Positions 56,224 through 58,424 of a stretch of DNA of 64,000 nt are shown piece by piece. Position 1 is the first letter of the stretch. Every line of letters begins with the position of its first letter. This stretch comes from Sutcliffiella horikoshii (GTDB taxonomy: Bacteria > Bacillota > Bacilli > Bacillales > Bacillaceae_I). A program made the position numbers and the translations under genes. The stretch covers positions 104,001 to 168,000 of the forward strand of contig NZ_CP082918.1 of the NCBI RefSeq assembly GCF_019931755.1. Reading direction: 5' to 3'. The notes beneath the pieces are model-generated. The model searched no databases, was not told the DNA's origin, and saw only the letters and a list, made by a program, of their open reading frames with translations.

Positions 56224-56262
56224 TGGAAAACCCCCGACCCTTTGTGGTTGGGGGTTTTTTGG
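56224..56262 (+). terminator. Terminator after rpsI
   Basis: A 13-bp stem AAAACCCCCGACC / GGTTGGGGGTTTT with loop CTTTGT is followed by T-run. Confidence 0.93.
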
Positions 56263-56280
56263 TGTTTTGGCGGAGTGTGT

Positions 56281-56470
56281 GTGGGTTGAATTTTATGCAA
56301 GAGAGGTCCTCATACGAGTGATGAAGACGTGAGTGGGTTGAATTTTGTGCAAGAGAGGTCCTCATGAGGCCGATGAAGACGTGTCTGGGTTAAATTTTGT
56401 GCAAGAGAGGTCTTCATGCGGCCGATGAAGACGTGTCTAAGGTATTTTCCGTGCAAGAGAGGTCTTTATA
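56281..56470 (+). repeat. 52-bp tandem array B (3 units plus partial fourth)
   Basis: Units start at 56281, 56333, 56385 and 56437, exactly 52 bp apart (GTGGGTTGAATTTTATGCAA and variants). Each of the first three holds GTCYTCAT-N7-ATGAAGAC; in unit 3 the 8-bp palindrome is perfect. The period and core match array A at 35808, while the remaining half of the unit differs. The fourth unit decays after GAGAGGTCTTTAT. Confidence 0.92.
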
Positions 56471-56685
56471 ATTCTCGTGCGCGGTGGATAAATTGTCCGA
56501 GAGGTTTATAGAGCGGGAATTCCATGCTGAAGCGGTCTGGGAAACTAAGCCTCACCAGAACCTTAGAGCCCCTCCATTCTACCTAAGCAGTATTTCACAC
56601 GCACTCCTGGAAATTAAGTAAAAATTAGGTAATTACAACCAAATACGACTGTTCTATATAGTGAATAAAATAGGCACTATGCAAC
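56471..56685. other. Gene-free spacer before the exported coiled-coil operon
   Basis: I see no coding signal, no further repeat unit and no clear structural RNA. GC content falls towards the promoter at 56686. Confidence 0.5.
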
Positions 56686-56714
56686 TTAACAAATTTTAGA
56701 ACTTGCTATATCAT
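56686..56714 (+). promoter_or_regulatory. SigA-type promoter of the exported coiled-coil operon
   Basis: TTAACA (56686-56691), 17-bp spacer, TATCAT (56709-56714). Predicted start near 56721, only about 15 nt before AGGAGG at 56736-56741, so the first gene must begin right there. Confidence 0.7.
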
Positions 56715-56750
56715 TAGTTCTTAATAAAGAAAAAAAGGAGGTAACTTGTC

Positions 56751-57167
56751 ATAAGAAATAAGTTAACGGTTCCAATTCTGATTCTGACCTGTTTTTTCTT
56801 CGCAGGCACTCACGTACAAGCAACTAGCTGGACTAACCTCAAAGACTGGATGGCAGATAATCTTAATGGGTATCTACATCATGAAAACTCCAACAACACC
56901 TTTTCAGAACAACTCCAAGAAATAGACAACTCCCAATACTCCTTAGAAATAGAAGAGTTCTTCAAGTCCACCACCACCTCAACAAAGAGCAAAATTAAAA
57001 ACCACCAAGCAGATTACATACAACAGCTCACACAAGCGCAATCACAATTAAAACAGAATACACTGGATAGTTATTACGATGAACGCCAATCGAAGCTGGA
57101 CGAAGAATTGACCCAGGAACTTGAGCAATATCTCGCAGAATTATTGGATGAAACTAATAAACCTTAA
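56751..57167 (+). CDS. Predicted exported coiled-coil protein 1 (unknown function; non-canonical start)
   Basis: I do not recognise this family. Reading back from ATG 56850, the frame stays open to an AGGAGG site (56736-56741) and encodes a classic signal peptide: RNKLTVPILILTCFFFAG, then VQA as a likely cleavage site. The codon at ideal spacing (9 nt) is ATA at 56751, where ATG would be expected. No in-frame ATG, GTG or TTG exists before 56850; two CTG codons (56778 and 56784) are weak alternatives. With ATA the product is 138 aa. The mature part begins TSWTNLKDWM, then is Gln/Glu/Ser/Thr-rich and helical with heptad-like spacing. If translation instead starts at ATG 56850, the protein is 105 aa and loses the export signal. 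First of three related genes. Confidence 0.65.
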   Translation: MRNKLTVPILILTCFFFAGTHVQATSWTNLKDWMADNLNGYLHHENSNNTFSEQLQEIDNSQYSLEIEEFFKSTTTSTKSKIKNHQADYIQQLTQAQSQLKQNTLDSYYDERQSKLDEELTQELEQYLAELLDETNKP

Positions 57168-57182
57168 GAGGAGAGATATAGG

Positions 57183-57953
57183 ATGACTTGGAAAAAGAAA
57201 TTAGTAGCAGGTACAGTAGCGGTAGGTTTAGTGTCTGGTGTTGGTATGACGTTTGCAAGTGCAAGTGAAGGATCGCCTTTGAGACAGTGGTACGACGGAT
57301 TATTTGGCAATACACAACAGTCTGTTTTGGCAGATAACGAAGCGGCGGCAAGTGAGGCATTTGCAAACTGGGCAGCAACTACCGAACAGCTTAAAGTTGG
57401 TGCAGGCATGCAAATCAATGAAAAAATGGAAGCAGAACTTACAAGGGCAGGCACGGAAATTTTGAGTGCAAAGGATGAGCATATATCTTCACTGGACGAA
57501 GAGAAAGCGGCATTGCTTGCAAACATGAACTACCAAGTGTATCAAAACATTTTCTTAGAAGGATTCATGGCAATCCAAAACCAAGGAAATGCAGCGATGG
57601 GTACGGTCGAGGAAAGCTTCCGGGATTACACCAGTGAAACAGGACAAGCTGCTGTAAATGAAATGACGCAAGAGTTGACCTTTGCAAAAGATTCCGCGGT
57701 TACTGAATTGGAAGAGGCGATTGCACAAGCCAAAGCGGAACTGTCCGCACAGCTTGCGATGGAAGAGCAGGTAAGCAGACATAATCTGGAGCGACAGATC
57801 ACATACAAGTTGAGCGACTTGCGCGATGCATTGACATCTATCATCAATGAACTGGTGAGTGAACAGCAGAGTATCATCACAGCGAAGGCTTTGGAACTGG
57901 AAGAAGAGGCCAAAGCAAGTCTTGATGAAGTAATGGAAAGCATTAATGACTGA
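57183..57953 (+). CDS. Predicted exported coiled-coil protein 2 (unknown function)
   Basis: A 256-aa protein I do not recognise. N-terminal signal peptide TWKKKLVAGTVAVGLVSGVG with likely cleavage after FASA (about residue 27). The mature start SEGSPLRQWYDGLFG is followed by long Ala/Glu/Lys-rich helices (for example QELTFAKDSAVTELEEAIAQ and ELEEEAKASLDEVMES), with no cysteine and no membrane anchor after the signal. Strong GAGGAGAGA site 5-8 nt before ATG 57183. Overlaps the third gene by 8 nt. Function unknown; a cell-envelope, spore-compartment or secreted fibre-like role would all fit a signal plus coiled coil. Confidence 0.85.
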   Translation: MTWKKKLVAGTVAVGLVSGVGMTFASASEGSPLRQWYDGLFGNTQQSVLADNEAAASEAFANWAATTEQLKVGAGMQINEKMEAELTRAGTEILSAKDEHISSLDEEKAALLANMNYQVYQNIFLEGFMAIQNQGNAAMGTVEESFRDYTSETGQAAVNEMTQELTFAKDSAVTELEEAIAQAKAELSAQLAMEEQVSRHNLERQITYKLSDLRDALTSIINELVSEQQSIITAKALELEEEAKASLDEVMESIND

Positions 57954-58389
57954 CAAGCGACAGCAAAGACTGTTCATTGTGGTGATGATGGTCTTGGCAC
58001 TTCTTTTTACAGCAGAATGGAAAACGGCATATGCCAGCTCCAATATAAAATCTTTGCTCACAAGTTGGTTTGAAGGGAAGCAACAGGAATCCATTCAATC
58101 TTTGGAAAATGAAATTATGTCAGAAAAAGAAGCCCAGATGACTATTTTAAAACAAGAAATAGCTGTTTCATTAGATCAGGTCAATAAAGAGCTTGCCAAT
58201 TTTACTATTATAGAGGCGGAAAAAAGCAAGGCGGAGCTCAAAAGCTATACAGAGGAACTTATCCAATCCATCGAATTTGATGAGGAAGGTAAGCAGGAGC
58301 AGTTTATAAGTGAACTCGAGAAAATTATGGAGGAAGCGTATTTGAAAATGGAACAAGCCCGTGAAGATGCGCTTCATCCATCAGAATAG
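57946..58389 (+). CDS. Predicted exported coiled-coil protein 3 (unknown function)
   Basis: A 147-aa protein I do not recognise. The basic start TDKRQQR is followed by a hydrophobic stretch LFIVVMMVLALLFTAEW and likely cleavage at AYA-S (about residue 30). The mature start SSNIKSLLTSWFEGKQQES resembles the starts of the two upstream products (hydrophobic-x-x-Trp). The rest is Glu/Lys-rich helix. It could also remain as an N-terminally anchored membrane protein. Translationally coupled to the preceding gene (8-nt overlap); a terminator follows 7 nt after its stop. Confidence 0.83.
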   Translation: MTDKRQQRLFIVVMMVLALLFTAEWKTAYASSNIKSLLTSWFEGKQQESIQSLENEIMSEKEAQMTILKQEIAVSLDQVNKELANFTIIEAEKSKAELKSYTEELIQSIEFDEEGKQEQFISELEKIMEEAYLKMEQAREDALHPSE

Positions 58390-58396
58390 TCCATTT

Positions 58397-58424
58397 GCCT
58401 GTGCCAGGTTGCGCAGGCTTTTTT
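58397..58424 (+). terminator. Terminator of the exported coiled-coil operon
   Basis: An 8-bp stem GCCTGTGC (58397-58404) / GCGCAGGC (58411-58418), one G-T pair, is followed by T6. Confidence 0.9.

Follow-up and report, generated by a model that had tools for sequence, protein, structure and literature searches.

To our knowledge, very few families of protein scaffolds have been described in Gram-positive biofilms. Among the characterized systems, the closest to the locus analysed here is the tapA-sipW-tasA operon of Bacillus subtilis. According to the available portion of one source, TasA assembles by an N-terminal donor strand, and TapA may nucleate this assembly (PMC9674648). The published operator duplex of the repressor SinR, TTTGTTCTCTAAAGAGAACTTA, contains two inverted GTTCTYT elements, as given in the available parts of the reports (PMC3163267; also PMC5733473). 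In Bacillus cereus, the available part of a further report describes TasA, CalY and CapP as a three-component extracellular filament system (PMC13082335).

The window (the whole stretch of 64,000 nucleotides of Sutcliffiella horikoshii DNA that was analysed) contains an operon of three genes, designated here the X operon, with the products X1, X2 and X3. Based on sequence comparisons, we consider it probable that SinR represses this operon and that its three products are alpha-helical paralogues exported to the extracellular matrix or the cell surface. Its best reading is that of an undescribed SinR-repressed extracellular-matrix operon, which would work like tapA-sipW-tasA while being unrelated to it. 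The likeness lies in putative exported structural proteins with a conserved mature N terminus, a clustered signal peptidase (for X, in relatives only) and SinR operators, and in one relative (locus L063) the X operon adjoins a tasA locus. In contrast, the X proteins are helical, without a match to TasA, to TapA or to the model of SipW-type signal peptides, the peptidase of the X clusters is of the bacterial type I and not of the SipW type, and the X operon is found together with TasA more often than not. Three defining features of the TasA system were tested: X1–X3 had no match to the TasA/camelysin family (PF12389) and none to the SipW-dependent signal peptide model (TIGR04088), which is matched by the tasA product of L063, and no SipW-type signal peptidase is encoded in the operon of the window. 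Thus, the X operon lies outside the TasA system but looks like a locus of the same kind, i.e., repressor-controlled genes for exported matrix or surface proteins of an unrecognised family. With the B. cereus TasA/CalY/CapP system, as far as the available part of the report describes it (PMC13082335), the X operon shares the idea of three extracellular filament components; it differs in consisting of three paralogues with no Pfam or NCBIfam match above the cut-offs. A search of titles and abstracts of open-licence papers yielded nothing pointing to the X family, which has no name to search by.

Operon layout, encoded proteins and distribution

The initial annotation had described one SigA-type promoter, three tightly linked genes and one terminator at positions 56686–58424, and this layout was confirmed: the range holds a promoter-like site and a terminator, with three genes in the same direction between them (Table 1), with a gap of 15 nt between the end of gene 1 (57167) and gene 2, and an overlap of 8 nt between genes 2 and 3. 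The operon anatomy fits inside that range, but the upstream operator half (56651–56666) had been missed. The promoter-like sequence is present and its −10 box is kept in the genus, but the −35 box is not, and the promoter scan detected 4 sites versus a mean of 5.6 in shuffled sequences, so TTAACA-17-TATCAT alone is no better than chance. Terminator-like sites numbered 4 in the scan versus 3.3 expected. Comparison of the window with eight relatives (G014 excluded) gave dN/dS values of 0.16–0.48 for gene 1 (8/8 pairs), 0.07–0.11 for gene 2 (7/8 pairs computable) and 0.13–0.27 for gene 3 (5/8 pairs computable); by this comparison, the three genes are real. In one relative (G001, locus L005), gene 1 is close to that of the window (dN 0.079, dS 0.33), while gene 2 is distant (dS 1.9), so the operon looks mosaic, as if recombined.

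Table 1. Features of the X operon and its upstream region in the window.
Feature	Position	Strand	Remarks
Upstream palindrome GTTCTATATAGTGAAT	56651..56666	.	4 mismatches to GTTCTTTATAAAGAAC; aligns in 9/10 Sutcliffiella sequences
Promoter-like site TTAACA-17-TATCAT	56686..56714	+	−10 kept across the genus, −35 not kept
Palindrome GTTCTTAATAAAGAAA	56717..56732	.	Directly past the −10 box; 12/14 matches to GTTCTYTNNARAGAAC, shuffle p ~0.01
Shine-Dalgarno AAAGGAGGT of gene 1	56734..56742	+	Relatives with ATA/ATT keep AGGAGG or GGGGG
Gene 1 (X1)	56751..57167	+	138 codons; ATA start proposed; signal peptide followed by helical chain
Gene 2 (X2)	57183..57953	+	256 aa; signal peptide; L..WY at mature start; long helices (low-confidence model)
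Gene 3 (X3)	57946..58389	+	147 aa; signal peptide; LLTSWF motif; helical chain
Intrinsic terminator	58397..58418	+	Followed by T6

The three products have a common plan, in which a signal peptide (cleavage sites set by eye) precedes an L..W[YF] motif, located just past the cleavage, and then a long chain that is acidic and helical. The mature proteins have no cysteine, a pI of 4.2–4.4 and 25–33% charged residues, in agreement with the initial annotation, which had called them cysteine-free, charged, helix-rich and exported. The claim that they are unrecognised also withstood the database searches: Pfam and NCBIfam scans of X1–X3 and their distant relatives gave only chance coiled-coil matches, all below the cut-offs, and PDB profile searches with X2 and X3 returned amphipathic-helix matches only, e.g., apolipoproteins. 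An AlphaFold model of X2 built from 12 sequences (pLDDT, 50.8) has two long helices and no fold. A longer X2-like protein (~400 aa) with an extra C-terminal part is encoded at L029:9177–10376 and at other loci of the same genus; by eye, this part looks beta-rich and is possibly a carbohydrate-binding jelly roll, and a Pfam scan of one such protein gave no match above the cut-off.

What the earlier account of the proteins, correct as to helicity and export, had missed is their common ancestry and the non-standard start of gene 1. Profiles built from 16 X1, 30 X2 and 21 X3 proteins matched one another at full length with probabilities of 97.5–98.8%. After removal of the signal peptides, the values were 97.1% (X1–X2), 94.1% (X1–X3) and 80.8% (X3–X2), and after removal of both signal peptides and W motif they fell to 84%, 52% and 13%, respectively. 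As the X3–X2 match drops to 13% without the W motif, the kinship of X3 is carried mostly by the N-terminal part; the X3 profile also detects the X2 copies of the same operons in the genus containing Gottfriedia, a genus identified from its protein records. Exported helical controls reached only 0.1% and 1.9% (GerD) and 1.8% (another secreted coiled-coil protein), although these controls are weak, since their profiles are shallow. Since the profiles match mutually and the controls do not, X1, X2 and X3 are, at the level of sequence profiles, a paralogous set. The suggestion that the three products form a joint assembly appears plausible.

X2 was detected in 34 of the 397 genomes of the order, belonging to 16 of 135 genera (the match in G090 is weak), in 15 of 120 relatives with the own genome counted, and in 2 of 398 genomes of a phylum-wide draw, one being the own genome and the other a weak match with an internal stop. 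X2 is single-copy in the own genome. Of the 16 Sutcliffiella genomes, 10 possess it, in all ten between rpsI and ybaK, while the X operons examined in other genera have different neighbourhoods. In the genomes of the family that lack X2 (six of Sutcliffiella and two others), the rpsI-ybaK site holds other genes or is empty. Across relatives (L007 and L124–L131), the cargo of this gap differs, by eye being a chemotaxis receptor, coat-like genes, an MFS gene with TetR, a glycosyltransferase, or absent altogether. The operon had been interpreted as a lineage-specific insertion; the site does hold variable cargo, but this interpretation is too simple, as the family is present in those 16 genera, and a close relative without X2 (G011; YbaK 99% identical) retains a scar of gene 1 at the site. 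Because of this deletion scar, loss is considered to play a part in the distribution of the operon. Between rpsI and the operon (56260–56480), tandem repeats with a period of 52 bp and a hairpin core GAGAGGTCYTCAT N6 GATGAAGAC were observed. This core has 172 matches genome-wide with ≤2 mismatches (95 forward, 77 reverse; 0 for the reversed control), and among the matches listed the hairpins are mostly on the plus strand before ~2.3 Mb and mostly on the minus strand after ~3.3 Mb, as if their orientation were replication-linked.

SinR-operator-like palindromes and the exopolysaccharide and tasA loci

The palindrome at 56717 corresponds to an inverted GTTCTYT pair at the promoter, as in the SinR regulon. 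It and the upstream palindrome are 66 bp apart in the window, L003 and L007 (the loci scored at both sites), and both are kept in the genus, except for the upstream one in G014. Operators were scored with the published motif GTTCTYTNNARAGAAC in the 300 bp upstream of the operons (shuffle p ≤ 0.05), using 8 of the 10 Sutcliffiella sequences (L026 included); in the two left out, G013 and G015, the same sites are visible in the alignment. A significant operator was found in 22 of 31 operon upstreams versus 9 of 192 control upstreams of the same loci; among these nine are the upstreams of tasA, of two LCP genes and of a kinase gene of a two-component system. Counted by genus, 7 of 15 were positive (p 2e-5 versus controls). 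No significant operator was found in the operon upstreams of L028, L063 and L067.

The own genome contains 18 sites with ≤2 mismatches to GTTCTTTATAAAGAAC, the window palindrome among them and several of them inside genes; at ≤3 mismatches there is no excess, with 71 palindromes versus 77 for the reversed control. Half of the 18 best sites (nine) fall within 35 kb at an exopolysaccharide (eps-like) locus (binomial p 4e-15), which includes genes for chain length and tyrosine kinase and a gene for a secreted coiled-coil protein; one SinR-like gene is part of it and another lies 6 kb away. This locus corresponds to G000:C1:3682001–3732000 (L098–L100), with nine strong SinR-like palindromes and two SinR-like genes. 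The secreted coiled-coil protein encoded there (333 aa; 3726022–3727023) has two palindromes at its start and is a candidate matrix protein; the secreted coiled-coil protein encoded next to the slrR-like gene was rejected as a member of the X family (profile match, 1.8%). Two SinR-like palindromes also precede the gene of a small DUF5658 protein (L102; own genome 2773305–2773695).

In L063, tasA-tapA-sipW and the X operon converge, with a DUF5658 homologue (L063:4350–4646) located between them; upstream of tasA there are three sites with 0–1 mismatch, one of them perfect. For the own-genome tasA, which has a sipW-like neighbour, no operator within 3 mismatches was found in the 8 kb examined.

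The own genome encodes two SinR homologues, one of which contains HTH_3 and scores 31.1 bits for SinI (cut-off, 31.4); against the SlrR model, the two give sub-threshold matches. A SinR homologue (E ≤ 1e-15) occurs in 34/34 genomes with X2 versus 266/363 without it, and the TasA family (PF12389) in 26/34 versus 149/363; both statistics ignore phylogeny, the 34 positives including 10 genomes of one genus and 9 of another. Based on the latter counts, X as a replacement of TasA was rejected.

Gene neighbourhoods and alternative functions

The 26 loci compared all have their X genes in tandem arrays of three or four (in L067, clustering gave two, and the first gene was added by eye). A type I signal peptidase gene is located inside the cluster in 20 of the 26 neighbourhoods; two of these peptidases were Pfam-scanned, and the Ser and Lys motifs were found in 20/20. 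That of L027 scores above the cut-offs for TIGR02227 and PF10502 and far below that for the SipW model. The clustered peptidase is missing from the three Sutcliffiella loci, L028, L059 and L067. Since relatives carry this peptidase and there appears to be a tie between the operon and the SinR regulon of biofilm genes, the initial description of the operon as self-contained is not supported. A search of the own genome for a dedicated peptidase gave four S26 matches, none of them in the operon of the window. The three that were extracted group together in a tree, apart from the clustered peptidases, though the tree is weak because the long sipW branch lands among the clustered peptidases. A dedicated signal peptidase was therefore not found in Sutcliffiella.

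Regulatory genes are also found nearby: 11 of the 26 loci, 9 of which belong to one genus, have a SinR-type gene, and 6 loci have a NarL-type two-component system. In L027, L031, L071, L073 and L075, the two-component genes beside the X operon come with a gene for a membrane protein, and the one member scanned (L075) has an HD_5 domain. None of the six two-component-linked loci has a significant operator, versus 22/25 of the others (by genus, 0/5 versus 7/10, p 0.026), which suggests two control modes for X operons, i.e., a SinR operator or a two-component system.

The surroundings of the operon in the genus containing Gottfriedia bear on another reading, in which the X proteins coat the cell wall or join the surface layer, bound to wall polymers, and SinR control serves surface remodelling. 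Eight loci of this genus have an accessory-Sec S-layer assembly gene near the operon, five of them together with secA2 (one member of each was scanned for these assignments), an LCP gene is likewise nearby in eight loci of the genus, and the automatic name of one relative (P0016) mentions an SbsC C-terminal domain. However, no SLAP or SLH domain was reported for X1–X3 by the Pfam and NCBIfam scans, which sets them apart from SecA2/SLAP surface-layer export, and this export system is a neighbour of X in just eight of the 26 loci, which all belong to a single genus; blastp clusters show no relative of the S-layer export genes in the loci of other genera. We regard this reading as unlikely, though the best of the alternatives.

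Less probable still is that the X proteins do not polymerise at all and act as exported helical chaperones or apolipoprotein-like amphipathic surfactants, keeping exopolysaccharide, TasA or lipids in solution or scaffolding them. The acidic pI, the co-occurrence with the TasA family given above and weak amphipathic-helix matches of X3 to apolipoprotein A-I chains (E ~0.005) would agree with it, but such matches are of the sort that any amphipathic helix yields, and the conservation of the L..W motif and the fixed number of three paralogues point to specific contacts. The reading as a SinR-repressed operon of matrix or surface proteins is preferred to both in what follows.

Start codon of gene 1 and proposed working of the operon

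Genes 2 and 3 have normal start codons and signal peptides, as initially annotated. For gene 1, the annotated signal peptide exists only if translation starts at ATA 56751: by ATG/GTG/TTG rules, the first start is at 56850 and the signal peptide is lost, while the full-length frame is open upstream to this ATA, with GGAGG 9 nt before it. In the ten Sutcliffiella sequences, the codon at this position is ATA in seven, ATT in one and ATG in two, one of the latter being G014, where the alignment is poor. An in-frame ATG (G015) or GTG (G007) is found two codons earlier, and several relatives have ATG or TTG a few codons after the ATA/ATT; the window and G001 have no alternative on either side. Over the signal-peptide codons of the ATA/ATT set, pN is 0.217 and pS 0.604 (pN/pS, 0.36); gene 1 is under purifying selection, the signal-peptide codons included. 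A conserved codon, a strong Shine-Dalgarno sequence and a selected frame, as in genes with non-AUG starts, are thus combined in 8/10 genomes.

According to the available part of a ribosome-profiling study of Staphylococcus aureus, infC and ccpN have a conserved AUA start with a strong Shine-Dalgarno sequence, and non-canonical starts yield ~10% of what AUG gives, with ccpN reaching up to 30% in rich medium (PMC13009471). In view of this precedent, the use of an AUA start for the translation of gene 1 is credible by analogy. X1 resembles infC, ccpN and cvfC1, as covered in the available part of that source, in its conserved AUA or AUU and strong Shine-Dalgarno sequence, and differs in that its start was found by comparison only and its product would be an exported structural protein (PMC13009471). 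That gene 1 is instead a decaying gene without a start codon, in an operon on its way out of Sutcliffiella, is improbable: its signal-peptide form has no ATG, GTG or TTG in the window, and 6 of 16 Sutcliffiella genomes have no gene-2 match (one of the six being just 80% complete, and one bearing the gene-1 scar), but ATA or ATT stands in 8/10 genomes in a frame free of stops, and the dN/dS and pN/pS values given above and the retained Shine-Dalgarno sequence argue against decay.

In the working proposed here, a SinR-like repressor bound to the palindrome pair, one member of which lies just past the −10 box, would block transcription in planktonic cells. Antagonism of the repressor in biofilm growth would open the X operon alongside the exopolysaccharide genes. 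The X proteins would be exported via Sec and cut by a type I signal peptidase, clustered with the operon in most relatives, whereas Sutcliffiella would presumably use a general enzyme. At the mature N terminus, the conserved L..W[YF] is likely to be a contact or processing element, through which assembly would take place outside the cell. X2, the longest and best conserved protein, may be the main subunit, with X1 and X3 as minor partners; the AUA/AUU start would keep X1 low, in keeping with a role as nucleator or cap. That the proteins assemble into fibres is an inference, and by analogy the X proteins could be a helical counterpart of TasA. A more far-reaching version is put forward tentatively, as possible rather than probable: an undescribed all-helical extracellular polymer system of three paralogues, running in parallel to TasA and served by a type I signal peptidase of its own, would be a second biofilm protein scaffold across patchy lineages of bacilli, controlled either by a SinR operator or by a NarL-type two-component system next to the operon, and with one subunit rationed in Sutcliffiella by a conserved AUA/AUU start.

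If the proposal is true, a second, helical family would stand under the same repressor, in many cases in genomes that possess TasA as well, and the protein matrix of bacilli would be more composite than thought. SinR operators beside orphan signal peptidases would offer a route for finding further scaffolds of this type, and the AUA/AUU start of X1 would provide a clean test case for the rationing of a structural subunit by its start codon.
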